DNA of 64,000 nucleotides from positions 62,001 through 126,000 of the forward strand of contig JABCZH010000010.1 in the NCBI GenBank assembly GCA_013289795.1. The letters run 5' to 3'. Below are positions 4,645 to 24,411 of the stretch, one piece after another. The position numbers and the translations under genes are program-made. This stretch comes from Acidobacteriota bacterium (GTDB lineage Bacteria; Acidobacteriota; Terriglobia; Terriglobales; Acidobacteriaceae). The notes below the pieces were generated by a model. It was not told where the DNA came from, ran no database searches, and saw only the letters and a list, made by a program, of their open reading frames with translations. Each line of letters opens with the position of its first letter. Position 1 is the stretch's first letter.

Positions 4645-5913
4645 TTATTGCCCGCCAGCGCCCCGGAACATTTCCGGTGGGTCGAGGTAGCACCGCCGCC
4701 ACAAACCTTCATCGGATAGCGTGCCGGCCTTCCACTCCCGTAGCACCGGCAGGGTCGCAGCCACCATCCCTCCGTCGGAGGAATCGAAAATAAGCACAAT
4801 CCCCAACGCGGTTGACGAGGATTTTGTCAGCTCGGCGTACTCCTTGTCGAACAGCCCTTTAACGAATGTGAGCTTAGCTTGCGAACCGCTATCCGCCCCG
4901 CTGTTGGCAGCCTTTTGGATGGAAACAATCCTCACAACTTTCCCGCGAAGCGGTTCCCAATCCCCAGGGAAAGACGCGATCTGCTCGTTCTCAATCTGAA
5001 AGGGCGCCTTATCGTCAGCAGCTGGCGACGCGGGAGGGGCTACGGGCGGCGCGTCCTCGGCCGACGAAGCATCGGGCATCTCGAGGTTGGAACGCCTGAT
5101 CCAGGCGCGCGAAAGCCCGGAGATGCGCAAATGCACCCAGCTTTCATTGCTGTCCAGAATCTCGAACTCATCCTCCGCATCGGCGAGAAACAAAACCTTG
5201 GCTCCCTCGCTCGGGCTTACCAAAACTGGGGTTCCCGCCTTCCGGACGGCGGCCAGGTTGTTGGGATGTGATTGGTTGCGGAGGATTTCCTCCAGGTTCT
5301 TGGCTTCCTTGTCCAGATTGTCGGTGTGCCGGTCGGCCACGCCGCTCCTCGGAGGTGGTGTCGGGCTATGGTCTGCTCGCGGGAAAGTACTCCCCTTAAA
5401 GGACGGGGCTGAGGGAAGATTGAGAGTCGAAGCGTCAGTGGCGGAAACGCTTTTGCCCTTCGCGGTTCCGGGCGCGCTAGCGGGCGAAGAGGTGGTGGAG
5501 GAGGCCTTGGCAGCGACTGCGTCTGTCAATCGATCCAGCAGATCGGATTCCAGCCGGCCATTGGACGGCAAAACCTGATATCCGGATTTCGTCGCCTCGG
5601 GGGAGTTGTACCAAGCGGTGATTTTGGCGCTGATGCGTACCAGCGACCCACCTGTAGGGGTCGCGGTGACTTGAACGGCGCATTGGTAGTAGCCCTTCTG
5701 AAAACGATCGAGGGATTGCGCGCCGGGAACCGCGAAGCCATCCAGCACCGGCAGACGGCCGCTGGTCGAAGATTGCAACTGGCGAACCGCCGCCTCCACT
5801 ACCGGCTTTGGTTGGGGAAGGGTGCGTTCAGCGGGGGCGCCCTGCGCTCGACCCAACGGTATCGTCAGTGCCCACAAGGCCGCGACCGCAGCTAGGCAGA
5901 ACCTCGACTTCAT
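4645..5913 (-). CDS. Secreted protein with SH3-like domain, unknown function
   Basis: 422 residues. A signal peptide (to about residue 25, ending GRAQG) is followed by an N-terminal globular part, a low-complexity Ser/Ala/Pro linker, and a bacterial SH3-like segment around residues 225-280 (PVLVSPSEGAKVLFLADAED through WVHLRISGLSRAWIRRSN). SH3 domains of this kind usually bind peptidoglycan or periplasmic partners. The C-terminal 120 residues match nothing recognisable. The start codon overlaps the stop of the upstream gene by 4 bp (ATGA), so the two are translationally coupled, and that upstream gene also ends in an SH3-like domain. Confidence 0.6.
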   Translation of the reverse strand: MKSRFCLAAVAALWALTIPLGRAQGAPAERTLPQPKPVVEAAVRQLQSSTSGRLPVLDGFAVPGAQSLDRFQKGYYQCAVQVTATPTGGSLVRISAKITAWYNSPEATKSGYQVLPSNGRLESDLLDRLTDAVAAKASSTTSSPASAPGTAKGKSVSATDASTLNLPSAPSFKGSTFPRADHSPTPPPRSGVADRHTDNLDKEAKNLEEILRNQSHPNNLAAVRKAGTPVLVSPSEGAKVLFLADAEDEFEILDSNESWVHLRISGLSRAWIRRSNLEMPDASSAEDAPPVAPPASPAADDKAPFQIENEQIASFPGDWEPLRGKVVRIVSIQKAANSGADSGSQAKLTFVKGLFDKEYAELTKSSSTALGIVLIFDSSDGGMVAATLPVLREWKAGTLSDEGLWRRCYLDPPEMFRGAGGQ

Positions 5914-7046: not shown

Positions 7047-7796
7047 ATGGGTAGCCAGACTCTTGACACGCCCGCAAGAAAACGTCACCGTGGCTTGCGA
7101 GTCGAAAATAGCATGCTGAATGGTCTGAACGCGCGCACTCTTGCATCGCCGAGTCACCGTCCTGCTGCGGGCAAGTTGTCGCTTGTATCGCTGCCCAAGA
7201 GGAAGCGGGACCGTGCCGGCAAACAAAAAGCGCTGGTGCACGCGGCCTTACGCTTGTTTGCCACCAAGGGATATGAAGTCACAACCACTCGCGAGATCGC
7301 CGCGGCTGCGGGTTGTGCCGAGGGTTTGATCCACCGTTACTTCAAAGGAAAGGCCGGCCTGCTCACTGCCCTGGTCGAATACCACATCTCCGATGAGTTG
7401 ATGGGAATGCGTCATCGCGCGCGCTCGGCCGGGAGTCTGCAGGAAGAATTCCTGCAATTGGTCGATTGGGAGATCGGATACTTGTGGAAAAACCGGGATT
7501 TTCTCCGAGTGTTTGTTTCGCGGGCATTGGTGGATCCGTCGCTTGGCAGTGTAATTAGCCGGGCCGTGCTCTCCTCCCGCACCAAGGCCGTGAGGGAGCG
7601 TCTCAAGCGTCACCGGCAGTGCGCCGGTCTTTCTCAGGAGGAGCTTGAGATCCTGGCCCAGTCCGTAGGGCTGTTTGGTTTTGTGTTCGGCTTCATGCGT
7701 CCCGTGGTGCTCGGACAGGATCGAGCTCAAGCCCGGAAAATGGCCGCTGCTCTGGCCGCCATGCTGGTTCGTGATCTTGCTCGACTCTCAGGTTGA
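7047..7796 (+). CDS. TetR/AcrR family transcriptional regulator
   Basis: 249 residues with a classic TetR helix-turn-helix (ALRLFATKGYEVTTTREIAAAAGCAEGLIHRYFKGKAGLLTAL pattern, about residues 66-110) and a ligand-binding C-terminal helical domain. The N-terminus is about 55 residues longer than usual; an internal ATG at 7113 or a later codon may be the true start, since no clear ribosome site precedes 7047. It lies immediately upstream of, and on the same strand as, the cytochrome/oxidase operon. The perfect palindrome 74 bp past its stop is the obvious operator candidate. It may sense a redox or electron-donor-related ligand; this is inference from position. Confidence 0.85.
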   Translation: MGSQTLDTPARKRHRGLRVENSMLNGLNARTLASPSHRPAAGKLSLVSLPKRKRDRAGKQKALVHAALRLFATKGYEVTTTREIAAAAGCAEGLIHRYFKGKAGLLTALVEYHISDELMGMRHRARSAGSLQEEFLQLVDWEIGYLWKNRDFLRVFVSRALVDPSLGSVISRAVLSSRTKAVRERLKRHRQCAGLSQEELEILAQSVGLFGFVFGFMRPVVLGQDRAQARKMAAALAAMLVRDLARLSG

Positions 7797-8112: not shown

Positions 8113-9525
8113 ATGACCTCTCCCCGGAGGCATTTTGCGGGATGGTTGCTGTGCGCATTGTTCATTGCGGGAGCGTTGCCACAGGCTAACGCCCTGCCTG
8201 CCTTCGCCCGCAAGTATGGTCTGCGCTGCTCAGCCTGCCACGAAGCCTGGCCGATGCTTAACTACTTCGGCCAGAAGTTCAAAGACAACGGCTACCAGTT
8301 GATGAACGATCACGACGCTCCCATCTGGCAGAATCCCGCCTACTGGCCGGTCACCTTCCGCATGACCCCGTACTGGCACCGGGAAAGCACCGACAAGGTC
8401 GCGGTTGACTCAGTGACAGGGGATGCCACGAGTGCAGCCAGGGAAGCCCAAGTCACATCTCACGGGTTTGACCTGAGTGGTCTCGACTTCCACACCGGCG
8501 GAACCTTGGACAAGAATATTTCCTTTTATCTGCTGCCCTCGTCCGATCCCACAGGGACTTTCCACTTTGAGACGGTGATGGCGCGGTTGGATAACCTTTT
8601 TGGCAGCTCCTGGCTGAACGTCAAGCTGGGCAAGTTCGAACTTGACAACTTGGTTTCCGAAAAACGAATCCTGACGCTGACCCCGATTTCGGGGGTTTAC
8701 CAGACCTATCACTTCCTGCCGCCTGGAGATGCCAATATCTACGGCCAGATTGGCGATAACCAGCTCGGCATCGAGTACATGGGACATTCTGCCAACGACC
8801 GCACGCGCGTGTCGGCCGCTCTTTTGAGCACCAGTGACGGCAACGTGAACCTGGCCTCCGGCACTAACACCTACACCGGATTTTTCGCCGCCAGCCAGGC
8901 ATTCGATACGGGCAAACTCGGCGTCCAACGCCTGGGATTTTACGCCATGGTTGGAGAGGCCCCAATTACGTTTCTCACCAGCGGGGGCGTGCCAGTGAAC
9001 GGCACTGGAACGGGCAACAAGGGGTTCAGCCGCGAGGGCTTTGTCGGATTGTTTTATCTCAAGAAGCTCGACTTCCTGGTGGTGACCCAGCATGGTTCCG
9101 ATAGCGCCTGGTTCGGACAAGGTTTCGGCAATGCCACCAACCCGTTTAATGGAACACCCGGAGGGGGGAACGGGGGCGGTCTGAATTGTATCCCCGGAAC
9201 GTGTGTTCTTCCCGCTGCTGCGCGCGCTCCCAGTTGGAACGGGTTCCTGTTGGAAACCCACTATGTGTATAGCCCGCAAATTGTCTTCATTCAGCGTTCT
9301 GAATGGCAGCGGGTGTCACAACAGGCGATGACAACCAATGCCTCCAGCTTGGGCAATACCGACATGTACACGTTTGGAATGCGCTGGTACCCGATCATGA
9401 CCAGCCGGGCGGGATTTGCCTGGCACAACGAGTACTCGTGGCTGCGTACGGTGGGAGGATCACCGGTCACGGGGACTGACCTGACCAGCAGTAGCTTGAT
9501 GTCCGGCTTTGACTTCGACTTCTAG
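8113..9525 (+). CDS. Fused monoheme cytochrome-porin (Cyc2-like outer-membrane protein)
   Basis: 470 residues; the ATG at 8113 has an AGGAGG ribosome site. A signal peptide ends about residue 27 (ANA). The mature protein opens LPAFARKYGLRCSACHEAW with one c-type heme site (C39-S-A-C42-H43) and the following YFGQKFKDNGYQ segment, then about 400 residues of alternating beta strands ending in FDFDF, the C-terminal aromatic signature of outer-membrane barrels. A short heme domain followed by a barrel is the Cyc2 architecture, in which the porin carries electrons through the outer membrane. It heads the operon with diheme cytochrome, cupredoxin and terminal oxidase. Iron as donor is only a hypothesis; a general extracellular redox role is equally possible. 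Confidence 0.75.
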   Translation: MTSPRRHFAGWLLCALFIAGALPQANALPAFARKYGLRCSACHEAWPMLNYFGQKFKDNGYQLMNDHDAPIWQNPAYWPVTFRMTPYWHRESTDKVAVDSVTGDATSAAREAQVTSHGFDLSGLDFHTGGTLDKNISFYLLPSSDPTGTFHFETVMARLDNLFGSSWLNVKLGKFELDNLVSEKRILTLTPISGVYQTYHFLPPGDANIYGQIGDNQLGIEYMGHSANDRTRVSAALLSTSDGNVNLASGTNTYTGFFAASQAFDTGKLGVQRLGFYAMVGEAPITFLTSGGVPVNGTGTGNKGFSREGFVGLFYLKKLDFLVVTQHGSDSAWFGQGFGNATNPFNGTPGGGNGGGLNCIPGTCVLPAAARAPSWNGFLLETHYVYSPQIVFIQRSEWQRVSQQAMTTNASSLGNTDMYTFGMRWYPIMTSRAGFAWHNEYSWLRTVGGSPVTGTDLTSSSLMSGFDFDF

Positions 9526-9540
9526 GAGAGGGGATCAGCG

Positions 9541-10407
9541 ATGCCTACGAAACTACTCAAGTGGTCGTGGTTGGCGGCGTCAGCTGCCCTGCTGCTGGCA
9601 GCCACGGCGCAAGCCCAGATCACCAGCTACGATGAAAGAGATCGCCTCAACACTGACAGCCATATTGGCAAATACACCGGCCATGCCACGAACGCCAAAG
9701 AGGACTACCGGCGGTATTGCGTGGGTTGTCACGGCGAGTTGGGCGATGGAAATGGCGAGGTCGCCCAGTGGCTCGATCCGAAACCGCGCGACTTCACTCT
9801 GGGCATCTTTAAGTGTCGCTCGACACCTACGGGGACGCTGCCCACCGACGAAGATCTCTTTAACACGATTGCGCGCGGCCTGGACCGCTCCAACATGCCC
9901 GTCTGGAACACCTTCACCAAACAGCAGCGCGCTGATCTGGTGGCTTGGGTCAAGCATTTCTCTCCGCGCTTTCAGAAGGAAAAGCCGGGGACGCCTATTG
10001 AGATTCCCGCCGAACCCGAGGTTACACCGGAGCGCGTCAAGGCTGGGCAAGATGTTTTTGCCCGGGTACAGTGCTGGAAGTGCCATGGCGTAGAAGGCAT
10101 GGCCAACGGTCCCTCGGCGTCGACTCTGACCGACGACTTGAGCCGGCCAATTCTGCCCTATAACTTCACCGACGGCTCGCGCCCCAAGTGTGGCTCCACT
10201 GACCAGGACATTTACCGGATCTTCATGACCGGCCTGGACGGCACACCGATGCCGTCGTTTTCCGACAACATCAAACCAGAAGAGGCCTGGGACCTGGTGT
10301 TCTATCTGCGTACCCTGCAGCCTCACAATACTTTCAATCTCAAGGAAAGGCAGATTGCCAAGCAATTGGGACTGAAGCCCGTGAATCCCAATGCGCCGGC
10401 ACAGTAA
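9541..10407 (+). CDS. Diheme cytochrome c, periplasmic
   Basis: 288 residues. A signal peptide to about residue 26 (ATAQA) precedes two class I cytochrome c domains with heme sites CVGCH (60-64) and CWKCH (178-182), each followed by the GDGNG/GMANGP type loop. A conserved methionine in SNMPVW and in TPMPSF can act as sixth ligand. Its role would be to shuttle electrons in the periplasm between the outer-membrane cytochrome and the cupredoxin or oxidase. It begins 15 bp after the cytochrome-porin with its own ribosome site (GGAGAGGGG), clearly in one operon. Same position as the diheme cyc1 gene in rus-type operons. Confidence 0.88.
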   Translation: MPTKLLKWSWLAASAALLLAATAQAQITSYDERDRLNTDSHIGKYTGHATNAKEDYRRYCVGCHGELGDGNGEVAQWLDPKPRDFTLGIFKCRSTPTGTLPTDEDLFNTIARGLDRSNMPVWNTFTKQQRADLVAWVKHFSPRFQKEKPGTPIEIPAEPEVTPERVKAGQDVFARVQCWKCHGVEGMANGPSASTLTDDLSRPILPYNFTDGSRPKCGSTDQDIYRIFMTGLDGTPMPSFSDNIKPEEAWDLVFYLRTLQPHNTFNLKERQIAKQLGLKPVNPNAPAQ

Positions 10408-10440
10408 TCCCGGAGGCTTCGGGAGATCAGGAGACTGTTC

Positions 10441-11187
10441 ATGAAAAGTCATTACGTACGCAAGCTTGCAGCAGTACTACCGGCGCTCGTACTTGTCTGT
10501 GCAGGAGCCGTGCTCTTGAGCCAGAAGGTGAACGCTGCCGGCGGCGGCTCAATCACCGGCACCGTGAAGTTGAGCGGAACCGCCCCGCACATGAAGGGCA
10601 TTGATATGTCCAAGGACCCGGTGTGCAGCAAGGCCCACGACACCAACCCGGCAAAAATGGAGAATGTGTTGGTCGGCTCGGGCGATGGTTTGGAGAACGT
10701 TGTCCTGTACATTTCGCAGGGCCTGACCGGCAATGAAGCACCGTCCTCGCAAGAACCTACGTTTGCTCAAAAGGGTTGCATGTATACACCCCATGTGCTG
10801 GCCCTAAATGTAGATCAGAAGTTCAAGGTGACCACGGAGGACCAGACCACTCACAATATCCACCCGTTGCCGGATCCGACCGCGGGGAATATCGGCTGGA
10901 ATAAGTCGCAACCGCCGGCAGCGCCCCCGATCGAGACGAGTTGGAAGAACCAAGAAGTGGCCATCCCGGTAAAGTGCAACATTCATCCCTGGATGCACGG
11001 GTGGTTCGTAGTCGTTAAGGGTCCGTACGCTACTACCGACGACAAAGGTTCGTACACCATCCAGAATGTACCAGCGGGAAGCTATACGGTAACCGCTTGG
11101 CAAGAGGATCTTGGAACGCAGACAGCAAAAGTGACGGTGGCGGCCGGAAGCGCGGCCAAAGCCGATTTCACCTTCAAGGGGAAATAG
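10441..11187 (+). CDS. Cupredoxin with C-terminal carboxypeptidase-regulatory-like domain
   Basis: 248 residues with an N-terminal signal peptide. A plastocyanin/azurin-type blue-copper site can be read: H138 in THNIHP, then C179, H182 and M185 in KCNIHPWMHGW. Two further cysteines (C62, C113) could form a disulfide. Residues about 195-248 form a beta-sandwich of the CarboxypepD_reg type (DDKGSYTIQNVPAGSYTVTAW). Proteins of this architecture are often named methylamine-utilisation or plastocyanin-like. Between a diheme cytochrome and oxidase subunit II it most likely passes electrons in the periplasm, a role like rusticyanin though not closely similar in sequence. Confidence 0.75.
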   Translation: MKSHYVRKLAAVLPALVLVCAGAVLLSQKVNAAGGGSITGTVKLSGTAPHMKGIDMSKDPVCSKAHDTNPAKMENVLVGSGDGLENVVLYISQGLTGNEAPSSQEPTFAQKGCMYTPHVLALNVDQKFKVTTEDQTTHNIHPLPDPTAGNIGWNKSQPPAAPPIETSWKNQEVAIPVKCNIHPWMHGWFVVVKGPYATTDDKGSYTIQNVPAGSYTVTAWQEDLGTQTAKVTVAAGSAAKADFTFKGK

Positions 11188-11276
11188 GATACCAATTCTG
11201 ACTGGGGCTGCCGCTTTTGCGCGGCCCCTGGGGCAGTTTCAGTAGCCGTTCGAAACTAGTCCAGCGCGAGGGCAAC

Positions 11277-12080
11277 ATGGCGAAACTACTGGCTGTGACC
11301 ATCGTAGTGATTGCGATCCTTTCCGCGATTCCGATCATCCGGAATACCTGGCACCCGCTGCCGGACGTCTCGGCCCACGGTCAAGCCATCGACGACCAGT
11401 TGTCGGAAACCATGTGGGAGGCGGGAATCTCTTTTCTAGCCTCACAGATTATCTTGGCGTGGTTTATCTGGAGATACTCGGGCAACAGGCCGGGCGAAAA
11501 GACCAAGACTTTTCCCGGCGGCGCTACGGGACTGGTGGCTGCTGCGGTCATTCTTGTCGGTGTGGAAGTGTTCGCCCTGGGAATTTTCGGAGTCAAGGCC
11601 TGGGCCAATATTTACTTCACACCGCCCGGCGCAGACGCGATGCCCGTGCAGGTCCAGGCCGGCCAATTTGCCTTTTACTTCCGCTATACCGGCCCGGACG
11701 GAACTTTTGGCGCCATCCATCCCGAGATGCTCAGCGAAGCTAACCAGAACTTTTACGGAATTGACACTGACCACGATTCCGACGCGAAAGACGACATCGT
11801 GACGGCTGAAATGGCGGTCCCGGTGAATCGTGAAATTCGCTTGTTGATGCACTCGAAAGACGTCAGCCATTCTTTCTACGTTCCAGCCTTGCGGATTCAT
11901 CAGGATTTCGTGCCGGGACTGGATCTGCAAATTCATTTCACGGCGACCAAGGTTGGCAGATATGAAATTGTGTGTAGCCAGCTCTGTGGCCTCGGACATT
12001 ACAACATGAAGGCCTACCTCAGTGTGCTTTCCCAGGACGATTTCGACGCCTGGTTAAAGAAGCAAGCAGCCCTGCAATAG
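11277..12080 (+). CDS. coxB: Cytochrome c oxidase subunit II
   Basis: 267 residues. Three hydrophobic segments can be seen (about 3-22, 48-66 and 83-108), then a periplasmic cupredoxin domain with the binuclear CuA ligands H198, C233, C237, H241 and M244 (VCSQLCGLGHYNM). It accepts electrons from a cytochrome c or cupredoxin and passes them to heme a in subunit I. The ATG at 11277 is chosen because GAGGG lies just upstream; an earlier in-frame codon adds 20 polar residues of no family similarity. The extra N-terminal membrane segment is more than the usual two. Confidence 0.93.
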   Translation: MAKLLAVTIVVIAILSAIPIIRNTWHPLPDVSAHGQAIDDQLSETMWEAGISFLASQIILAWFIWRYSGNRPGEKTKTFPGGATGLVAAAVILVGVEVFALGIFGVKAWANIYFTPPGADAMPVQVQAGQFAFYFRYTGPDGTFGAIHPEMLSEANQNFYGIDTDHDSDAKDDIVTAEMAVPVNREIRLLMHSKDVSHSFYVPALRIHQDFVPGLDLQIHFTATKVGRYEIVCSQLCGLGHYNMKAYLSVLSQDDFDAWLKKQAALQ

Positions 12081-12118
12081 GTGACGTAAGAACGACGACG
12101 TACCTTTGAGGTGAGCAT

Positions 12119-13903
12119 ATGCACGACACGTCAACGCACGCGGCGGCACATCACGGGCCGCCTACGAGTTTCATTCGGAAGCACGTTTTCAGCCTCGACC
12201 ACAAAGTGATCGGCAAGCAATACTACGGTTTAGGCCTGGTGGCTGTGATCATCGGCATGGTGCTTTCCTGGGTGATGCGCATCCACCTCGCGTGGACTGC
12301 CTATCCGATTCCGGGTCTGCATTTGCTCTCCGGCACGGGCGCCCCCGGCAATGTGATGACTCCAGAGTTCTATCTACAAGTCATGACCATGCACGCAACC
12401 TTCATGGTCTTTTTTGTGCTCACGGTTGTACCCTTCGCGGCATTCGGCAATTTCTTTCTGCCGATCCACACTGGCGCAGAAGACATGCCCTTCCCGCATT
12501 TCAACATGATGTCGTTCTGGACCACGTTTGTGGCCTTCTGCGTCATGTTGTTGTCGTTCTTCGTCGGCGACGGACCAACTCTGGGCGGTTGGACCCAGTA
12601 TGCACCGCTCAGCGCAGTTGGGGCGGTAGCAGGTCCTGGCCAGGGTTCAGGCGTGATTATTTGGGCAACCTCAATCGCCATATTCTGCGTGGGCCAGCTG
12701 TTTGGGGCCCTGAATTTTATCCCCAACGTCCTCGACCTGCGTTGCAAGGGCATGAGCATGTGGCGTCTGCCGATGCCGACCTGGGCGTGGTTCATTACTT
12801 CCTGCATGGGTCTGACGTCGTTCTCTGTTCTGATGCCAGCTTGCATCCTGCTGATTCTTGACCACGTGGCGGGGACGAGTTTCTTCGTCGCATCCAATCT
12901 GGTGATTAACGACCAGTTGCAACCTCACTCGGGTGGATCGACTCTTCTATGGCAGCATCTTTTCTGGTTCTTCGGGCATCCCGAGGTCTATATCGCCATC
13001 GTGCCGGGAATGGGGATTGTCTCGCATGTTCTGATCACCAACATGCGCAAGCCGATGCTGAGCCATCGGGTGTTGGTTTACTCCATGGGCGCCCTGGCGG
13101 TGCTCAGCTACATGGTGTACGGCCACCACATGTTCGTTAGCGGGATGAACCCCTTCTCTTCGCTGGTGTTCTCCTTCCCCACACTGCTGATTACCATACC
13201 CTCAACAGTCATCGTGTTGGTTTGGATCGGGAGTCTTTACGGCGCGAAGTTGCGCATTAACGCAGCTTCGCTGTTTGCTTTAGGTTTTATTTCGATGTTC
13301 ATCACCGGCGGAGTAAGCGGCTTTTTCCTGGCGCAGCCTTCGATCCAGATACTGCTCCACGCGACCTACTTCGTAGTGGCTCATTTCCACTTTACGATGG
13401 CGATCGCGGCGTTGTTCGGCATCTTCTCTGGAACGTATTTCTGGTTCCCCAAGATGTGGGGACGCATGATGAACGACAACCTGGGCAAGCTTCATTTCTG
13501 GCTCACCTTCATCGGCGTATATGCCATTTTCATGCCAATGCACTACCTGGGACTGGCGGGAAATGTGCGCCGCTACCAGGCTTTTGTGGTGGATTATATG
13601 CAGCCGCTAGTCGGCGTGCACCAGTTCATCACCATTGCGGCGCTCTTCACTGGCGCAGTGCAATTGATTTTCATTTACAACTTCATCCACAGCCGGTTCT
13701 GGGGAGAGCCCGCACCAGAGAATCCCTGGCAAGGCACTTCGCTGGAGTGGTCAGTCCCCTCCCCGCCTCCGCACGATAACTTCGGGGGCAAGCATCCGGT
13801 GGTTTATCACGATCCCTATCAGTATGGCGTGCAGAGTTCGACGGGTGATTACTTAATGCAGGATTCACCTGAGCAGGTGAAGGGCGCACAGGACGAGCCG
13901 TAA
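12119..13903 (+). CDS. coxA: Cytochrome c oxidase subunit I (A-type heme-copper oxidase)
   Basis: 594 residues, about 12 membrane helices. Visible landmarks: the low-spin heme histidine in TMHATFMVFF, the CuB/cross-linked Tyr motif GHPEVYIAIVPG (the Glu marks the A1 subfamily), the K-channel region YGHHMFVSGM, and the second heme-ligand pair AHFHF. It reduces O2 to water and pumps protons across the inner membrane. The gene sits 38 bp after subunit II, with a GAGGTGAG ribosome site before the ATG. It uses heme A or O, consistent with the heme O synthase gene four genes downstream. Confidence 0.96.
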   Translation: MHDTSTHAAAHHGPPTSFIRKHVFSLDHKVIGKQYYGLGLVAVIIGMVLSWVMRIHLAWTAYPIPGLHLLSGTGAPGNVMTPEFYLQVMTMHATFMVFFVLTVVPFAAFGNFFLPIHTGAEDMPFPHFNMMSFWTTFVAFCVMLLSFFVGDGPTLGGWTQYAPLSAVGAVAGPGQGSGVIIWATSIAIFCVGQLFGALNFIPNVLDLRCKGMSMWRLPMPTWAWFITSCMGLTSFSVLMPACILLILDHVAGTSFFVASNLVINDQLQPHSGGSTLLWQHLFWFFGHPEVYIAIVPGMGIVSHVLITNMRKPMLSHRVLVYSMGALAVLSYMVYGHHMFVSGMNPFSSLVFSFPTLLITIPSTVIVLVWIGSLYGAKLRINAASLFALGFISMFITGGVSGFFLAQPSIQILLHATYFVVAHFHFTMAIAALFGIFSGTYFWFPKMWGRMMNDNLGKLHFWLTFIGVYAIFMPMHYLGLAGNVRRYQAFVVDYMQPLVGVHQFITIAALFTGAVQLIFIYNFIHSRFWGEPAPENPWQGTSLEWSVPSPPPHDNFGGKHPVVYHDPYQYGVQSSTGDYLMQDSPEQVKGAQDEP

Positions 13904-13943
13904 GCAAACGATCATGGGATTTGTTTAAGGAGTTTAGTTCCCT

Positions 13944-14621
13944 ATGGCAACTACGATCCACGAACCGCCGAAAGTTGAGGAGCGTCGCTTACCAGGACGG
14001 GGAAGCCCCGGCAACGGAGACTTCCGGAATCTGGTCCCGAGCGACGGAAAGCTGCCAGCGGTTCAGGATTACGCTCCGGCTCCGGCCAAAACCGGAATCT
14101 GGGTGGTGCTGGCTGCGATTGCCATGAGCTTTGCCGCCTTTACCAGTGCCTTGATCGTACGGCAAGGATCGGCGATGGATTGGCACCATCTGGTGCTGCC
14201 CCGAATTCTTTACCTCAATACATTGGTATTGCTTGCCAGCAGCGTGACCTTGGAAATCGCTCGCCGCCGGGTCGCAGTTTTCATGACCGGTGCAAGAACT
14301 CTCGATCTAAGTCCTGCGCGCTGGTTGTACGTTACCTTATGCCTTGGTTTGGTTTTTGTTGCCGGCCAATACGCTGCCTGGCAACAATTGCGCTCCGAAG
14401 GGTTATATCTGGCCACCAATCCGGCCAGTTCTTTCTTCTATTTGCTGACGGCAATCCACGCGATGCACGTGCTCGGCGGGCTGGTTGGCTTGACCTACGT
14501 CATGCGCAAGCTGTATCGGGTCGTCCTACGGCGTAGCACACTGGATACGTTCTCCTATTACTGGCATTTCATGGGCATTCTCTGGGTGTATTTGCTCTTG
14601 CTGCTTTGGATGAAACTTTGA
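13944..14621 (+). CDS. coxC: Cytochrome c oxidase subunit III
   Basis: 225 residues; the first 50 are polar and probably cytoplasmic, followed by five hydrophobic helices. The ending FYLLTAIHAMHVLGGLVGL then YYWHFMGILWVYLLLLLW is the recognised subunit III pattern with its conserved histidines. An AAGGAG ribosome site lies upstream. Second in the oxidase block after subunit I; the protein stabilises the catalytic core. A second subunit III-like gene follows directly. Confidence 0.88.
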   Translation: MATTIHEPPKVEERRLPGRGSPGNGDFRNLVPSDGKLPAVQDYAPAPAKTGIWVVLAAIAMSFAAFTSALIVRQGSAMDWHHLVLPRILYLNTLVLLASSVTLEIARRRVAVFMTGARTLDLSPARWLYVTLCLGLVFVAGQYAAWQQLRSEGLYLATNPASSFFYLLTAIHAMHVLGGLVGLTYVMRKLYRVVLRRSTLDTFSYYWHFMGILWVYLLLLLWMKL

Positions 14622-14640
14622 TGCATGCACAGGAGGCACT

Positions 14641-15270
14641 GTGAGCGAAGCACATGTGACCATGGGAGCACATACGGCTGCACCGATGGAGGCGCCGCCG
14701 TTTGCGATTCCGTCTAAAAAGCTGGCGATGTGGCTGTTCGTCATGGCAGACGTAATGACCTTTGCTGCCTGTGTGGCTGCCTACGCATTCACCCGCAACG
14801 CCACCCCGGATTGGCCAAGACCCTTCCACAGCGTAACCGCCGTTGCTGTGATGACAGTCATCATGCTGACTAGCGGCTTGACTATGCTGATCGCACTCGG
14901 AGCTGCCAAGGCGGGCGATAAAGCGGGGGCCTTTCGCTGGATGATGATTACGGCCGTCGCGGGCATTATTTTCACCTTGCTGCACATCCGCGATTGGATG
15001 GGAATGATCGATCAGGGTGTGGGTCTGCTTCACAATCCTTGGGGGACGGCGGCCTTTGGAGCTTCATTCTATGCCATCACAGGGTTTAGCCTGCTGCACA
15101 TTTCCATCGGTACGATTGCGCTGATTATCGTGGCCATCCGCTACCAGGGAGGCCGTTACAACGCCGACGACATAGAAATCGTGAGCATTTTCTGGCAATT
15201 CGTGGGTCTGGTCTGGTTGTTCATCGTTCCCGTCGTCTATCTGATGAACCAGACGCCCGCGGCACGCTAG
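14641..15270 (+). CDS. Second cytochrome c oxidase subunit III-like protein
   Basis: 209 residues with about five membrane helices and the subunit III pattern FYAITGFSLLHISIGTIAL and IFWQFVGLVWLFIVPVVYLMN. It starts with GTG at 14641 after an AGGAGG ribosome site, 19 bp behind the first subunit III gene. Two subunit III-type proteins in one operon occur in several Acidobacteriota oxidase clusters; whether both enter the same complex is unknown. The YWHF motif of the upstream copy is FWQF here, so the paralogues have diverged. Confidence 0.85.
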   Translation: MSEAHVTMGAHTAAPMEAPPFAIPSKKLAMWLFVMADVMTFAACVAAYAFTRNATPDWPRPFHSVTAVAVMTVIMLTSGLTMLIALGAAKAGDKAGAFRWMMITAVAGIIFTLLHIRDWMGMIDQGVGLLHNPWGTAAFGASFYAITGFSLLHISIGTIALIIVAIRYQGGRYNADDIEIVSIFWQFVGLVWLFIVPVVYLMNQTPAAR

Positions 15271-15302
15271 ACCGAAGACATGAAGATAAGGGGCGAAACA
15301 CT

Positions 15303-15617
15303 ATGACAACCGCTGAACGGCACGGAATCGGGAAATATGTTGCCGTGTACATCTGCCTATTGGTCATTACGGCGCTGCAGTTCGTCATCGGCTATCAGAA
15401 CATTCAGGGGACGCAATTGGTGGTGCGTATGTTGACGTTTGCCATCATCGAGACCCTGCTCGTAGTGCTATTCTTCATGAACCTGGGCTCAGAAAAGCCG
15501 GTGTTCGTGAAGTTCGTCGTTTATTTCATGCTCTTCGTGCTGGCAACCATGAACTATATTTGGACGGACAGCTTCCGCCTGCTTTTATTTCGGCTCACGA
15601 AAGTCGGACCGAGTTAA
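15303..15617 (+). CDS. coxD: Cytochrome c oxidase subunit IV (prokaryotic type)
   Basis: 104 residues with three membrane helices and the COX4_pro pattern (NIQGTQLVVRMLTFAIIETLLVVLFFMNL, where the acid and Asn in helix 2 are typical; then LFVLATMNYIWTD). A small structural or assembly subunit that ends the core oxidase set. AGGGGC lies before the ATG. Confidence 0.85.
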   Translation: MTTAERHGIGKYVAVYICLLVITALQFVIGYQNIQGTQLVVRMLTFAIIETLLVVLFFMNLGSEKPVFVKFVVYFMLFVLATMNYIWTDSFRLLLFRLTKVGPS

Positions 15618-15646
15618 TGGCAAGGATGGCTATCTTTGGATGAAGA

Positions 15647-15922
15647 ATGAGACATAAATCGCACCTTCGGCTCGCGTATCTTGCAACGGCGGGACTGATC
15701 CTGCTGCTGACTGCACTTCCGGCGTTTTCGCAGAACTGTGCGCTCTGCTACACTCAAGCCGCTTCCGCGGGCGCGCGCATGATCCAGGCTCTGCGGAGCG
15801 GGATCTTGATCCTTATTCTTCCTCCTACCTTCGGCTCCATCGGCATGATCTTCATCGTCCGTCGCAGGAGCAATCAGTTCAAGCGGGACGATGATAGCGC
15901 AGAACCTGGCCAAGACTGGTAG
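15647..15922 (+). CDS. Small membrane protein with CxxC motif, unknown function
   Basis: 91 residues. A signal peptide or first helix (residues 10-27) is followed by QNCALCYTQAASAGARMIQALRSG and a second helix (about 53-72), with a basic and acidic tail. The CxxC lies at the membrane surface on the periplasmic side. Located between oxidase subunit IV and heme O synthase, so it could assist copper or heme insertion into the oxidase; this is inference from position only. Its end may overlap the start of the next gene. Confidence 0.6.
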   Translation: MRHKSHLRLAYLATAGLILLLTALPAFSQNCALCYTQAASAGARMIQALRSGILILILPPTFGSIGMIFIVRRRSNQFKRDDDSAEPGQDW

Positions 15923-15923
15923 A

Positions 15924-16823
15924 ATGGCGACCACAAACGTGATGGCGAATCCAACTTCTTTGCAGATGCTCCGGTCCAAGCTATCGGACTACTACACGCT
16001 CACCAAGCCCGAAGTGAATCTGCTGATTCTGATGACAACTTCGGCTGGCTATGCGCTGGCTTCGCGCTCACCGTTCCACATCATCGGTCTGCTCAACACT
16101 CTAGCCGGAACGCTGCTGGTGGCCAGTGGTACCGCCACCTTGAACCAGTGGATGGAGCGGGTGTGGGACGGTCGGATGCGGCGAACCGCTTCGCGGCCGC
16201 TGCCTTCGGGCCGAATGGCTGCCCACGATGCTCTGGGCTTCGGGCTGGCACTGAGCATCGCAGGGGGACTGTATCTGGCAGCCGCAGTCAACTTAGTCGC
16301 GGCTGGTTTGGCGATGGCGACTCTGCTCTCCTATCTTTTGATCTACACTCCGCTGAAGCGCAAGACGCCCCTATGTACGCTGCTGGGAGCGTTCCCAGGC
16401 GCGATGCCAACGTTGATCGGCTGGGCTGGGGCCTCGGGAAGGATCGACCCCAAGGCGTGGTTTCTATTCGCCATTCTGTTTCTATGGCAGTTCCCGCATT
16501 TTCTGGCGATCGCCCTGATGTACCGCGAGGACTATGCGCGGGCTGGCTACAAGATGCTGCCAGCTTTCGATCGGGACGCCCGCTTCACGCGCGCCGAGAT
16601 TCTGGGTTTGACGGTAATTCTGGTGGTGACTACGCTGCTGCCGTCCGCACGGCTCGGACTGCTGTATGGCATAGCCATGGCGCTGGCGGGAGCCTTCTTG
16701 TTGTATTACGTCGCCAAACTGACCCGCACAGCGTCTATTGTGCTGGCGAGCAAGTTGGTCCACGCTTCGGTGATTTATCTCCCCGTAGTTCTGGTGGCAG
16801 TGGTGGTCGCTTTCAAGGGCTGA
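15924..16823 (+). CDS. ctaB: Protoheme IX farnesyltransferase (heme O synthase)
   Basis: An integral membrane UbiA-family prenyltransferase that attaches a farnesyl group to heme b, giving heme O for the oxidase encoded upstream. Motifs: YYTLTKPEVNLLILMTTSAGY near the N-terminus, NQWMERVWDGRMRRTASRPLPSGR (the substrate-binding acidic loop), and YRxDYxRAGYKMLP (second loop). The start is uncertain: the ATG at 15924 (MATTNVM) directly follows the previous stop; an ATG at 15891 would overlap the previous gene by 32 bp. Neither has a strong ribosome site. Confidence 0.93.
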   Translation: MATTNVMANPTSLQMLRSKLSDYYTLTKPEVNLLILMTTSAGYALASRSPFHIIGLLNTLAGTLLVASGTATLNQWMERVWDGRMRRTASRPLPSGRMAAHDALGFGLALSIAGGLYLAAAVNLVAAGLAMATLLSYLLIYTPLKRKTPLCTLLGAFPGAMPTLIGWAGASGRIDPKAWFLFAILFLWQFPHFLAIALMYREDYARAGYKMLPAFDRDARFTRAEILGLTVILVVTTLLPSARLGLLYGIAMALAGAFLLYYVAKLTRTASIVLASKLVHASVIYLPVVLVAVVVAFKG

Positions 16824-18740: not shown

Positions 18741-20228
18741 CTACTTCAGACTCTGTACGTATGCCACCAAAGCCTTCATGTCCTCGTCTTTGAGGTCCGT
18801 AGTAGCGGGCATCCCCCCAGCCGTCATTTTGCTGTTCGGCTGCTTCAAGAGTGCTTCCAGCTTTGCGCCGTCGTACTTGGCTCCGACGCCAATCAGTTTC
18901 GGAGCTGCGGCTGTTCCGACTCCGCCGTCCCCGTGACAGGCGTTGCATCCTTGCTGCTCGAAGATATCTTTTCCTTTGGCAGCGAGGGGGTTCGCGAGGG
19001 CTACGTTGGCAGCGGCCAGCGACGAGCCGGCCAATTCAGGTTCGAAGGGCGCTTTCATGAAGCTCACAACATCCTCATGTTGCTTAGCCAGTTGGGAAGC
19101 TACCGCCGGATCGCGCAAATCGTTGCGATGGCTCAGTCCGCCCAGGACTCCCAGGCCAATGAAAATGATGGCGTAGATGGTCACTGCGGCCGGCCGCTTC
19201 CAAGGGCGGCGTTCGGGGCGCCGATCGAGAAAGGGCAGCGCCACGAATAAGAGAGCCACAAATCCCGGTATCACCAGGATGCCCACGATTGCGAGGGCGC
19301 CCTCCCAATACTTCAACCACTGAAATACTGGAATGTAGTACCACTCCGGACGCGGGACATATTGCGTGTCAGCCGGGTTTGCCTTTGGACCCAGCTCCAT
19401 GGGGGAGAAATGAGCCAGCAGACCCAGACCACAAATAATAAGCAAAGCGAAGACGATGTCGAACAGAACCTGCCGCGGATAGAAGGGTTCGGTCGATTGT
19501 TTCAGGGTCGCGGCATTGCCCTGGATCGGTCCGGCGGCCCCGGCCTTGCGAAACAGGTAAACGTGGGCCGCAACTCCGGCGAAGATGAAAGCCGGAATCA
19601 TGAATACGTGAAGGACAAAGAAGCGGGACAGAGTCAATGTCCCCATCTCGGTTCCGCCGCGCAACAAGCTCTTCAGCGCGTTCCCGACCCACGGAATTTC
19701 GCTCAGAATATTGGTGCCTACGGTCGTGGCGAAGAAAGCCTTCTGGTCCCAGGGAAGCAGATAGCCGGTGAACGACATCCCCAGCATCAGAGCGAACAGT
19801 ACGCACCCTGCAAACCATAGAAGCTCTCGCTTGCCTTTGTACGATCCAAAAAGAAAAGTCTGGGTGATGTGCAGGAGCAGGACGATCACGATGGCGCTTG
19901 AACCGTAGGCATGGATGCTGCGAATAAACGATCCTGCAGTCACTTCCTTGGTGATGTAGGCGATGGTGGTATGTGCGTGATCGGCGGAAGGAATGTAATA
20001 CAGCGCCAAGAAAACGCCGGTAATGATCTGCGATACAAACAGAAACAGCAGCCCCGATCCGAATACATAGGCGAGGCTAGCGCCTCCGGGTATGGGTTCA
20101 TCGAGTGCGGCATGAAGCAACGAGTCGACTCCGGTCCGGAGATCCAGCCAGTGGAAGAATCTTCCGCGCTGGGACGGTGCGAACGTTCCGCCCTGCTGCT
20201 TACGGGATGTCGATTGCGGTTCGTCCAT
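18741..20228 (-). CDS. Cytochrome b6-type protein fused to a C-terminal cytochrome c
   Basis: 495 residues. The N-terminal 360 residues are a full cytochrome b of a quinol:cytochrome c oxidoreductase: heme ligands H106/H120 and H207/H222, and the quinol-site PEWY at 294-297. The second pair has 14 intervening residues, as in b6-type proteins, against 13 in mitochondrial-type b. After a last helix and linker, residues 415-495 form a class I cytochrome c with CNACH at 428-432. It replaces a separate cytochrome c1/f. Start codon 9 bp after the Rieske stop. It takes electrons from quinol (or delivers them to quinone if run in reverse). Confidence 0.93.
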   Translation of the reverse strand: MDEPQSTSRKQQGGTFAPSQRGRFFHWLDLRTGVDSLLHAALDEPIPGGASLAYVFGSGLLFLFVSQIITGVFLALYYIPSADHAHTTIAYITKEVTAGSFIRSIHAYGSSAIVIVLLLHITQTFLFGSYKGKRELLWFAGCVLFALMLGMSFTGYLLPWDQKAFFATTVGTNILSEIPWVGNALKSLLRGGTEMGTLTLSRFFVLHVFMIPAFIFAGVAAHVYLFRKAGAAGPIQGNAATLKQSTEPFYPRQVLFDIVFALLIICGLGLLAHFSPMELGPKANPADTQYVPRPEWYYIPVFQWLKYWEGALAIVGILVIPGFVALLFVALPFLDRRPERRPWKRPAAVTIYAIIFIGLGVLGGLSHRNDLRDPAVASQLAKQHEDVVSFMKAPFEPELAGSSLAAANVALANPLAAKGKDIFEQQGCNACHGDGGVGTAAAPKLIGVGAKYDGAKLEALLKQPNSKMTAGGMPATTDLKDEDMKALVAYVQSLK

Positions 20229-20236
20229 TCGGGTGT

Positions 20237-20812
20237 TCAGGCGATGACTTCTTTGTCTGGAACGAGCTGCCGGAAATACTGATAGTGCACTTTCAAAGTG
20301 CCATCCTCGACCTTGGTTTCAAGGCGGTCCATTCCTCTCGGGGGCGGGCCTCCCAGGAGTTTCCCGTCGGCGCCAAAGCGCCCGCCGTGACATGGGCACA
20401 GGAACTCGTTATTTTCGCTATGCCAGGCGGCCGAGCACCCCAAGTGTGGGCAGATGGAAGAAAGCACGGTGAGCTGCCCGTTTGCTTGCTTGATCACGTA
20501 TACCGCTTTTTCCGAGACAATCTTGCGCCAGCCGTCCCGCTGCTCAACCGTGATCAGTTTCTTGATGGGCGAGGCTGCGGCGGCAAGTTCGTCTACACTG
20601 CCGACTTCTGCCCACGAGAGAGGCGTTGTGCTTCTGAGCAAGGGATGAAGTACAAAGCGAAACAGCGGAACCGAGAGCAGTGCGGCGACGCTGGCTGTGC
20701 CTACTGCGAGCAGCACTCCAAGGAATGAGCGGCGATCCGGAGAAGAAAGAGATACATCTCTGCTTGTTGCGGGAGGGGCTCCAGGCGAATTGCCATCATT
20801 GCCTTCGAGCAT
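20237..20812 (-). CDS. Rieske iron-sulfur protein of the bc complex
   Basis: 191 residues. A twin-arginine-like leader (DRRSFLG at 26-32) with one membrane helix (about 30-50) anchors the protein; the [2Fe-2S] cluster motifs are CPHLGC (121-126) and CPCHGG (139-144), the two inner cysteines C126 and C141 being available for the stabilising disulfide. It transfers the first electron from quinol to the cytochrome c domain. Immediately upstream of the cytochrome b-c fusion in one operon. Confidence 0.94.
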   Translation of the reverse strand: MLEGNDGNSPGAPPATSRDVSLSSPDRRSFLGVLLAVGTASVAALLSVPLFRFVLHPLLRSTTPLSWAEVGSVDELAAAASPIKKLITVEQRDGWRKIVSEKAVYVIKQANGQLTVLSSICPHLGCSAAWHSENNEFLCPCHGGRFGADGKLLGGPPPRGMDRLETKVEDGTLKVHYQYFRQLVPDKEVIA

Positions 20813-20898
20813 GGCTCGGTCACGCTCCTTACTCGCGACTGCTCAAAGCGACCCAAAACGCGGGGAATGCGCCGTCGCACGGCGTTCAAACAGAATCT

Positions 20899-21234
20899 TT
20901 ACTTCTTGGGTAATTGCCGGATGTAGGCGACCAAATCTTTGACCTTGTCCGGAGAAAGCTTCGCCCCGAACGCGGGCATTTTCCCTTTTCCCTTGGCGAT
21001 GACATCGGCGAGGTCTGCGTCCGCCTTACCTTGGACTTCATCGGATCGCAAATCCTTAGCTTTCAGCGCCTTCCCGGTAGGCGAATTGCCGCTGCCGTCC
21101 TCGGAATGGCACAGGGTACAGTTAGCCTTGAAGACCTTGGCGGCATCGCTCTGCGCCTGGAGGCTCAAGGGGATTGCGACAATTGCGAGGCAAACCAAAA
21201 CGACAGGCGCAAGACGTGAGGCATTGAGCTGCAT
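20899..21234 (-). CDS. Small periplasmic cytochrome c
   Basis: 111 residues. A signal peptide (to about residue 28) precedes a class I cytochrome c of about 80 residues: heme site CTLCH (39-43), SEDGSGNSPTG loop, and the methionine ligand in KGKMPAFG. AAGGAG ribosome site before the ATG; an upstream in-frame extension has no similarity. Probably the soluble electron acceptor or donor of the bc complex encoded just downstream. Confidence 0.9.
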   Translation of the reverse strand: MQLNASRLAPVVLVCLAIVAIPLSLQAQSDAAKVFKANCTLCHSEDGSGNSPTGKALKAKDLRSDEVQGKADADLADVIAKGKGKMPAFGAKLSPDKVKDLVAYIRQLPKK

Positions 21235-21271
21235 GGGATCTCCTTTCGTTAACGCAGCAGCCAGAAGCACG

Positions 21272-21304
21272 CCGGAAGCGGGTGGATTCTCCACCCGCTT
21301 CCGG
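21272..21304. repeat. Perfect inter-gene hairpin, 15-bp arms
   Basis: CCGGAAGCGGGTGGA and its exact complement separated by TTC, in the 110-bp gap between the second cytochrome-porin gene and the small cytochrome c gene. No T run follows on either strand, so it is not a standard terminator; it could stabilise or process the mRNA and set different levels of the outer-membrane protein and the bc complex. Confidence 0.7.
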
Positions 21305-21344
21305 TTCAACACGACAACCGGGAGCAGAAACGCAGTCCACTCTA

Positions 21345-22715
21345 TCAGAAAACAAATCGCATCAAAAGATAGGTGGAGCTGTTTGCGCCAGCGCTGCGGC
21401 CGGCACCGTCATAATTCGTGCCGGCTCCGTTGAACTTCACATAGCCGGTGTATTGGAATGCCAGATCAATGTTCTGCTGCGGCCACCAGGAAACGTTCAA
21501 CAAGTAGCCGTTGCTGGCGGGACTCCCGCTCGCGCTTCCTGAAACTGGGGCTTGGGCAAAAAGCAACGGATCGCGGGTTCCCGTTACATCGAAGTATCCG
21601 ACCGTGCCCGAAAAACGTGTGCCGAAATGATATTCGACATTTCCCTGCACCGTGTTGAGGTGGTTTGGCACGAGCGATGCGGCTGCGCCTGCAAAGCTCG
21701 CCTGCAAAGAGGAATTCTCGCGGATATACGTACCACGGAAGGATAGAACGTCATTCTTCCATTGCGGGATGACCCGATCATACTGAAAGTCAGCAGCCCA
21801 GTCTGTGTAGCCGTCTTCCAGACCAGTGATCGCGCCGGGTGAGCTCTTCAGGTGTATTCCGTAGGTGCCGATTTCCAGGTTGCTATTTGGCGTAGAGGTT
21901 TGCCATGCGAGGCGCCAATAGGGCGCCAGGCCGCGAATATTGATTCCGAACCCCGTTCCTGGGTTGGGTTGCGACCCGCCGATGTGCTCGGAACGATACA
22001 GCGTGCTTGCCAGATACAGATGATCGTTCCACATCGCATATCCGCCCAGTCCGGCTACGTCCTGGGCCAGGCCTCCATTGATGATGGCCCCCGCTGCGGG
22101 CGAAGGCACCGCATTGCTGCCAACGAAGGGATAGCCCCATGCGGGCGTGCTGTTCCAAAGATCCTCGACCGTTGGATTGTTGTTTAGCGTTGAACCGTAG
22201 GTGAGCGATTTGCCAAAAAGATGGCCATTGGTCCCCGCAAATCGGATGTCCGTGTTGTCCCAACTGAAGTGATCGCCCTGGGCGTCGTATGTGACCTGCG
22301 CAAAGCTGCCCACATGGCTTCCCCAGCTCCCGGCCAGGAACAGCGAAACATCCTGGGGAAACTGGAAGTTGCCATTTTGGGTGCCAGGCACAGTGGATCT
22401 AGTGGAAGTGAACGAAGTATCAAACACCACTGAAAGCGGGAAGGCCTCGAGGAGGTGCAGACTGGAATTGTGGTCCTTCTTGTCATCGCTCACCTCGGCC
22501 TTGGTAGCGAAGGTATAGCCCTCCAACTTGAATTTTCTGCCAAACGCATTCAGTTCTGGAGGAGAGTAGTGGCAGGACGCACAAGGCAGACCCGTCTGCC
22601 GCGAATAACTGGGAACGGCGCCTGCGGTGGTTACGGACAGAACAACCAGGCACAGGACCGCAAACAACCTTCCTAGGCTTCCGTTTGACGAATACCAAGA
22701 TCCCTTGCGAAGCAT
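21345..22715 (-). CDS. Second fused monoheme cytochrome-porin (Cyc2-like)
   Basis: 456 residues with a strong AAGGAGG ribosome site. Signal peptide to about residue 33; the mature protein starts AVPSYSRQTGLPCASCH (heme site C45-x-x-C48-H49), followed by ELNAFGRKFKLEGYTF, then a beta-barrel of about 380 residues ending LLMRFVF. The heme segment resembles Cyc2 N-termini more closely than the copy at 8113 does. First gene of the minus-strand operon leading to the cytochrome c, Rieske and cytochrome b-c genes, and preceded by a CRP-type site. A surface electron-transfer role is inferred. Confidence 0.75.
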   Translation of the reverse strand: MLRKGSWYSSNGSLGRLFAVLCLVVLSVTTAGAVPSYSRQTGLPCASCHYSPPELNAFGRKFKLEGYTFATKAEVSDDKKDHNSSLHLLEAFPLSVVFDTSFTSTRSTVPGTQNGNFQFPQDVSLFLAGSWGSHVGSFAQVTYDAQGDHFSWDNTDIRFAGTNGHLFGKSLTYGSTLNNNPTVEDLWNSTPAWGYPFVGSNAVPSPAAGAIINGGLAQDVAGLGGYAMWNDHLYLASTLYRSEHIGGSQPNPGTGFGINIRGLAPYWRLAWQTSTPNSNLEIGTYGIHLKSSPGAITGLEDGYTDWAADFQYDRVIPQWKNDVLSFRGTYIRENSSLQASFAGAAASLVPNHLNTVQGNVEYHFGTRFSGTVGYFDVTGTRDPLLFAQAPVSGSASGSPASNGYLLNVSWWPQQNIDLAFQYTGYVKFNGAGTNYDGAGRSAGANSSTYLLMRFVF

Positions 22716-24287: not shown

Positions 24288-24411
24288 TGTACAGCTTTGC
24301 ATGATCGGCAGGGAAGACTCCCCCTTCAAGGAAGTGGGGTTTACTGTTGTTCGCGTTCGCGCCCGCGGCTGGACTCTTGCCGCGATCAGACACACGACGA
24401 TGGAGTAAGTG

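Follow-up and report, generated by a model that had tools for sequence, protein, structure and literature searches.

Does the operon at positions 8113-16823 of the window carry electrons from outside the cell to oxygen, and is it a relative of the rus iron-oxidation operon of Acidithiobacillus or a separate system with the same layout? The window is the whole stretch of DNA analysed, 64,000 nucleotides of contig JABCZH010000010.1 from a bacterium of the Acidobacteriaceae. Ten genes follow each other in the operon on the plus strand, from a fused cytochrome-porin to heme O synthase (ctaB). The operon probably encodes an electron chain from the outer membrane to oxygen, for which the probability is set at roughly 0.65. 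This reading is built on the genes, the heme and copper ligand residues, a barrel model, the conserved gene order and the linkage to an oxidase.

The chain would begin at a 16-strand barrel in the outer membrane, where a cytochrome with one heme would accept electrons from a donor located at the pore or within it. A periplasmic diheme cytochrome c, an amicyanin-like cupredoxin or both would pass them to the CuA of CoxB and from there to CoxA, where O2 would be reduced. The direction is taken to be inward because the oxidase is an electron sink; the order of the two periplasmic carriers, the location and the donor are likewise proposed. Soluble Fe(II) is a first guess for the donor, since the heme-domain family includes Cyc2 clusters with biochemical support. 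By analogy, the chain would operate like rus.

Gene layout and comparison with rus

The genes of the operon are as follows.

8113..9525, plus strand: fused monoheme cytochrome-porin (family A), 470 amino acids; CXXCH motif, 16-strand model, OprP as best fold
9541..10407, plus strand: diheme cytochrome c, 288 amino acids; two CXXCH motifs, Cytochrome_CBB3 and Cytochrom_C (Pfam)
10441..11187, plus strand: amicyanin-like cupredoxin with a C-terminal CarboxypepD_reg domain, 248 amino acids; ligand residues, fold search, Pfam
11274..12080, plus strand: CoxB, oxidase subunit II, with the CuA-type motif CSQLCGLGHYNM; COX2 8.7e-14
12119..13903, plus strand: CoxA, subunit I, without the usual K-channel lysine; COX1 6.2e-117
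13944..14621, plus strand: CoxC-like subunit III, first; COX3 1.1e-8
14641..15270, plus strand: CoxC-like subunit III, second; COX3 1.9e-12
15303..15617, plus strand: CoxD-like subunit IV; COX4_pro 4.1e-8
15647..15922, plus strand: conserved small protein, 91 amino acids; in 19 of 23 relatives' loci
15891..16823, plus strand: CtaB, heme O synthase; TIGR01473 254.8 bits against a cut-off of 210.3

All genes that an earlier note on this DNA had named were found open, on one strand and in the order stated there. The short gaps were confirmed as well; they are, in operon order, 15, 33, 86, 38, 40, 19, 32 and 29 bases, with a maximum of 86, and the 91 amino acid gene and ctaB overlap by 32 bases. 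That gene list was otherwise incomplete, as the 91 amino acid gene at 15647-15922 had been left out and a better Cyc2 homologue lies outside the coordinates that the note covered. Seven of the ten genes are identified by Pfam (diheme cytochrome c, CoxB, CoxA, both CoxC-like subunits, CoxD and CtaB). CoxB also matches the NCBIfam CoxB model at 9.5e-32, yet under the cut-off of that model, and for the 91 amino acid protein neither Pfam nor NCBIfam gives a match at E 0.01. A relative of the latter (37% over 71 columns) adjoins the C6 oxidase genes of the host. The promoter scan was no better than shuffled sequence and the terminator scan was near it, and transcript ends are not claimed.

For comparison, 11 rus loci (L080-L090), from Acidithiobacillus and from proteobacterial assemblies, were fetched with a Cyc1 query. 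Compared by kind of protein, the window operon and rus share the order cytochrome-porin, diheme cytochrome c, cupredoxin, coxB, coxA, coxC and coxD. A heme O synthase gene, a Cyc2-type heme domain and a CoxA without the K-channel lysine are further likenesses. The rus-like layout is closer than the earlier note believed. It had taken the cupredoxin to be moved upstream of coxB, and had described a small gene between cyc1 and coxB in rus. In the published rus order (PMC10654088) the place between cyc1 and coxB is already taken by a cupredoxin (cup), and the same order including the cupredoxin is seen in L080. The small gene is that cupredoxin, in the same place as the cupredoxin of the window. 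The claim that five parts are the same as in rus is confirmed at the level of protein kind but not at that of orthology. In contrast to rus, the window operon has two coxC-like genes and a CoxA without the long N-terminal extension. The window CoxA is 56% identical to the C6 oxidase of the host and 29% to rus CoxA.

In the cupredoxin, H138, C179, H182 and M185 are invariant in all 22 aligned sequences. Pfam detects only its C-terminal CarboxypepD_reg domain, and its structure model has a mean predicted local distance difference test score (pLDDT) of 86.2. The best matches in the fold search were amicyanin, in first place, and purple cupredoxin; AcoP structures of Acidithiobacillus came only at ranks 40 and 43. 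The profile comparison (hhalign) with the Cup/AcoP type gave 0.8%. The closest solved relative of the diheme protein is 6h5l_B (E 3.8e-59, residues 52-261), which is presumably an anammox protein that works with an octaheme enzyme and not with an oxidase. Acidithiobacillus Cyc1 (1h1o) was absent among the 25 solved matches of the diheme protein up to E 10, and blastp against the Cyc1 (c4) type gave a best E of 0.17. The profile comparison with Cyc1 gave 95% over 177 columns, which was read as the general similarity of diheme cytochromes c.

Judged from sequence, the part specifically shared with the fetched rus loci appears to be the Cyc2 heme domain only, and not the barrel, the diheme cytochrome or the cupredoxin. 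No rusticyanin was found in the own genome with TIGR03095, a model that in the control matched only one of 14 genomes and none over the cut-off. Because only the heme domain is specifically shared, CoxA is nearest to a host oxidase and rusticyanin was not found, the layout looks like convergence and not transfer: the operon was apparently put together independently, around an aa3 oxidase of the kind that the host already has. After comparison with the fetched loci, acquisition of a rus operon from Acidithiobacillus was rejected as the simplest explanation. Among the open-access literature listings searched, no description of this operon came up.

The cytochrome-porin and the Cyc2 family

The N-terminus of the 8113 protein reads ALPAFARKY-GLR-CSACH-EAW-PML and contains the single CXXCH of the protein. 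According to Keffer et al. (PMC8406198), the Cyc2 consensus is AXPXFAR[Q/K][T/Y] before CXXCH and PXL after it; the length is at least 365 residues, and the porin has 16 strands and resembles OprO/OprP. Pattern comparison placed the 8113 protein within the motif, and with 470 amino acids and one CXXCH it also agrees in length and heme number. The strict motif is present in 20 of 23 family A members and the loose motif in all 23, while 10 of 11 reference Cyc2 sequences have the strict motif.

A structure model made from 21 sequences has 16 strands and a mean pLDDT of 63.8. In a Foldseek search with this model OprP ranked first (2o4v) and OprO third and fifth (4rjx, 4rjw), with TM-scores of about 0.5. 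The 8113 protein is therefore predicted, with moderate confidence, to form a 16-strand barrel of OprP/OprO-like fold, a likeness that is not specific among 16-strand porins. At E 0.01 it is matched by neither Pfam nor NCBIfam, and no solved protein matches it by sequence up to E 10.

The likeness to the Cyc2 of PMC8406198 thus comprises the motif, the single heme, a length above 365 amino acids and the predicted barrel. The difference is that the alignment with Acidithiobacillus Cyc2 is confined to the heme domain, with 57 columns and 40% identity in blastp (E 1.3e-7) and 49 columns with 96% in hhalign. With the barrel alone, hhalign gave 0.25% and no detectable homology. The view of the 8113 gene as a full-length Cyc2 was rejected on these grounds; homology with Cyc2, as implied by the parallel to rus in the earlier note, holds for the heme domain but was not detected for the barrel. 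Homologues of the Leptospirillum Cyc572 are present in Acidobacteria according to PMC10654088, and cytochrome-porins in this group were for that reason already known.

The same relatives have a third cytochrome-porin family, to which family A aligns at full length (406 columns, 99.95%). Loci of the third family (L064, L066, L073 and similar ones) have genes for a cupredoxin-like protein, a Rieske protein and cytochrome b nearby. L066 and L073 additionally have a pyridine-nucleotide/FeS oxidoreductase gene, L066 an eight-heme cytochrome gene and L073 a multicopper oxidase gene upstream. A plasmid collection searched with the 8113 protein at E 1 yielded four distant matches in the heme domain. 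Two of these, from Caballeronia and Methylocystis, are full-length relatives of a second, Cyc2-like family. Plasmid searches with two proteins of the window returned matches below 60% identity across many genera; for one of the two they were distant and spread over several phyla, with Acidisarcina among them.

The oxidase and its linkage to the cytochrome-porin

The K-channel residue was read by alignment column, except in L182 where it was found by pattern. The lysine of this column, which we take to be K354 in Paracoccus numbering, is an isoleucine in the window CoxA. It is missing in all 22 relatives' CoxA of the window class: 20 of these (L151-L170) have I, L, V or M, the split gene of L050 has I and L182 has V. 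The same column holds I or V in all eight CoxA of the fetched rus loci, two of which are from one strain and three from proteobacterial assemblies. The lysine is kept in the two other CoxA of the host, in ten of ten C6-type CoxA of relatives and in two intermediate CoxA that are 58-60% identical to the window class (G018, G098). The D-channel aspartate separates the window class from rus: it is retained in the window class, in all 20 CoxA having that column, whereas it is replaced by N or T in eight of eight rus CoxA.

Repeated loss of the K-channel is an implication of one scenario for family A oxidases according to Degli Esposti et al. (PMC8239418), and the loss alone is therefore not unique. 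What the present analysis adds is that the loss coincides with linkage to a cytochrome-porin. The host genome contains two further heme-copper oxidases, so the oxidase of the operon need not serve ordinary respiration. One of the two adjoins NrfD, FeS and multiheme genes, which were read as alternative complex III.

Conservation was followed in a sample of 100 genomes, own included. The 8113 protein is matched at E 0.001 in 57 genomes. Near full-length relatives occur in 23, own included, with 51-76% identity for the other 22, and the remaining 34 match only in or near the heme domain. The survey of the gene order in relatives that the earlier note called for bore out the linkage: among the 23 relatives' loci, genes on the same strand are those for the diheme cytochrome and the cupredoxin in 23, coxB in 20, coxA, both coxC-like genes, coxD and the 91 amino acid gene in 19, and ctaB in five. 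The conserved linkage is more than expected by chance.

Two of these loci (L057 and L036) are cut by contig ends; in L057 the cytochrome-porin gene is split in two open reading frames (ORFs) and the contig ends after the cupredoxin gene. Three partial or broken second copies of family A (G058:C93, G058:C11 and G009:C219) were left out of the fetched loci. Alignment A1 consisted of the window and 20 of the 23 fetched loci (without L036, L041 and L057), and alignment A2 of the window and 21 (without L048 and L057).

At the threshold used, 22 genomes have the window CoxA class (at least 69% identity), and G086 has it as a split gene. A family A cytochrome-porin and this CoxA class occur together in 22 of the 100 genomes and both are missing in 76; only G054 has the cytochrome-porin alone and only G056, on a cut contig, the CoxA class alone. 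In this count G086 was scored as CoxA-positive with its gene in two pieces, G056 as lacking the cytochrome-porin in spite of the cut contig, and the CoxA matches of G018 and G098 (58-60%) as another class. The Fisher test gives a p value of about 7e-20, without correction for relatedness.

Outside this group the linkage is looser. For the heme-domain-only relatives 17 loci were fetched, all of them free of coxA and coxB matches. The family A profile matches 11 of 396 genomes of the phylum at E 1e-30, of which four, own included, belong to the own family and seven to other families. In L142 (7803-13986, minus strand), from another family of the phylum, genes for a cupredoxin, a cytochrome-porin and a diheme cytochrome stand beside a cbb3-type oxidase with genes for a COX1-family protein and a FixO-cytochrome c. 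L143, a short contig, has a cytochrome-porin and a diheme gene followed by RND efflux genes. The other five distant homologues had no visible partner in the comparison with the window proteins.

Upstream of the operon a TetR-family gene may encode its regulator:

7047..7796, plus strand: TetR-family regulator gene, possible operon regulator; TetR_N 2.8e-16

A similar gene is present on the same strand in eight of the 23 relatives' loci, one of these being a match of 23 amino acids. Further upstream, at 4645-5913 on the minus strand, the window encodes a protein that shares 33% identity over 412 columns (E 1e-58) with the product of a gene of L046 at 9772-10995 on the plus strand. The L046 gene sits directly before the cupredoxin gene of that locus.

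A second cluster and the alternative explanations

The Cyc2 homologue mentioned above is the first gene of a second cluster, about 12 kb from the 8113 gene:

21345..22715, minus strand: Cyc2 homologue (CytPorin2, family B), 456 amino acids; blastp, hhalign
20899..21312, minus strand: monoheme cytochrome c, start uncertain; ORF, Cytochrome_CBB3 3.2e-15
20237..20812, minus strand: Rieske iron-sulfur protein; PF00355 9.1e-12
18741..20228, minus strand: cytochrome b fused to a C-terminal cytochrome c; PF00033 3.4e-48, PF00034 2.5e-13

The cluster (18741-22715, minus strand) runs toward the operon and ends about 1.9 kb from the end of it. CytPorin2 aligns with Acidithiobacillus Cyc2 with 30% identity over 494 columns (blastp, E 9.5e-36), and in hhalign with 100% over 426 columns and also over 339 barrel columns. 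By this sequence evidence it is a full-length Cyc2 homologue. Its heme motif is the variant AVPSYSRQT, which falls outside the strict pattern; seven of 23 members of the family have the strict form. Through the second cluster another surface cytochrome may be linked to the quinone pool, with CytPorin2 either feeding electrons uphill to quinone or carrying them outward.

From the listed full-length matches of CytPorin2, 20 were fetched, some of them on short contigs. Same-strand Rieske and cytochrome b genes are present in seven of these loci (L111, L113, L120, L121, L128, L129, L130). In three (L116, L119, L125) the arrangement differs and an eight-heme ORF accompanies Rieske and cytochrome b, and ten have neither Rieske nor cytochrome b within the fetched stretch. 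In L129 (10561-13149, plus strand) and L130 (5395-8034, minus strand) the cytochrome b proteins are 862 and 879 amino acids long with four CXXCH motifs, and their genes adjoin the Rieske and Cyc2-family genes. Near the second cytochrome-porin, at 24409-29975 on the plus strand of the window, are OEP, HlyD_D23 and ACR_tran genes of a metal-efflux-type RND system.

The chain from the outer membrane to oxygen is favoured because of the gene order and short gaps, the Cyc2 motif, the barrel model, the copper ligands, the linkage and co-occurrence with the oxidase and the cbb3 arrangement of L142. A number of findings weigh against it. In addition to the barrel not being detectably homologous to that of Cyc2 and to the missing rusticyanin match, PorB is found at Foldseek ranks 2 and 4, almost equal to OprP and OprO. 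The earlier note expected a heme plug in a barrel of about 16 strands; the strands are present in the model, but residues 22-68, the heme domain, have a pLDDT below 50 and the heme is not placed in the barrel. Biochemical evidence exists for one representative in each of three Cyc2 clusters, distant homologues being uncertain and the function of Cluster 3 homologues most uncertain (PMC8406198). The cytochrome-porin, diheme and cupredoxin genes of L046 and L048 have no adjacent oxidase genes, and the L046 genome (G054) lacks the window CoxA class altogether. In L048 the cupredoxin gene lies upstream, and its genome has a second copy with an oxidase beside it. L047 has 2.6 kb between the cytochrome-porin and diheme genes. 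The expectation that homologues have adjacent oxidases holds for the near full-length relatives but not for the heme-domain-only loci, and among the seven distant homologues in other families of the phylum only one has an adjoining oxidase. RuBisCO, the sole carbon-fixation route sought, was not found in the genome search, which makes an autotrophic need doubtful.

If the chain does run, it might do so on another donor, such as humic hydroquinones, minerals or partner cells, with Fe(II) irrelevant. As the barrel differs from that of Cyc2 the pore may admit such a donor, and a genome in which RuBisCO was not found is not that of a classic autotrophic iron oxidiser. The heme domain nevertheless fits the Cyc2 consensus, and a narrow 16-strand pore with a single heme is argued to suit dissolved Fe2+ better than solids (PMC8406198), so that irrelevance of Fe(II) is rather unlikely. 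The purpose could also be protective: Fe(II), Cu(I) or another reduced metal that is toxic would be oxidised at the outer membrane, with O2 as sink and little gain of energy. The efflux-type genes at 24409-29975, to which similar proteins are named CusA/CzcA in plasmid records, would suit such a role, as would the RND efflux genes of L143 and the failure to find RuBisCO. However, the efflux genes of the window are outside the operon, and the D-channel aspartate in 20 of 20 CoxA suggests a proton-pumping, energy-conserving enzyme; protective metal oxidation is accordingly considered improbable.

The loci without adjacent oxidase genes (L046, L048) would also agree with a different division of labour, in which the diheme cytochrome and the cupredoxin are fed by periplasmic or quinol-side enzymes and serve an ordinary terminal oxidase, the cytochrome-porin being a side branch or an outward route. 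An oxidase is a sink, though, and cannot feed electrons outward, and the co-occurrence of the CoxA class with the cytochrome-porin is near-perfect, which leaves this explanation quite improbable. With the outer-membrane-to-oxygen chain as the preferred reading, a wider picture can be put forward tentatively, as possible at well below even odds. A lineage of heterotrophs, probably Acidobacteriota, may have independently evolved a two-branch surface system, one branch leading from a cytochrome-porin to O2 through a K-channel-less aa3 oxidase and the other from a true Cyc2 homologue to a bc-type complex. Together they would harvest Fe(II) or other extracellular electrons, and the cassette of porin, diheme cytochrome and cupredoxin would be a portable input module for aa3 and cbb3 oxidases.

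If the chain exists as proposed, a considerable part of the family (23 of 100 genomes with the cytochrome-porin, own included) would be able to oxidise an extracellular donor, perhaps Fe(II). Such organisms would do so in the absence of the usual rus components, and this gene layout would have evolved on two or more occasions. Whether heterotrophs of this kind draw energy from iron or other outside electrons becomes a testable question. That two distant oxidase lineages, both with ties to cytochrome-porins, lack the K-channel lysine gives a specific and testable hint on externally fed oxidases.

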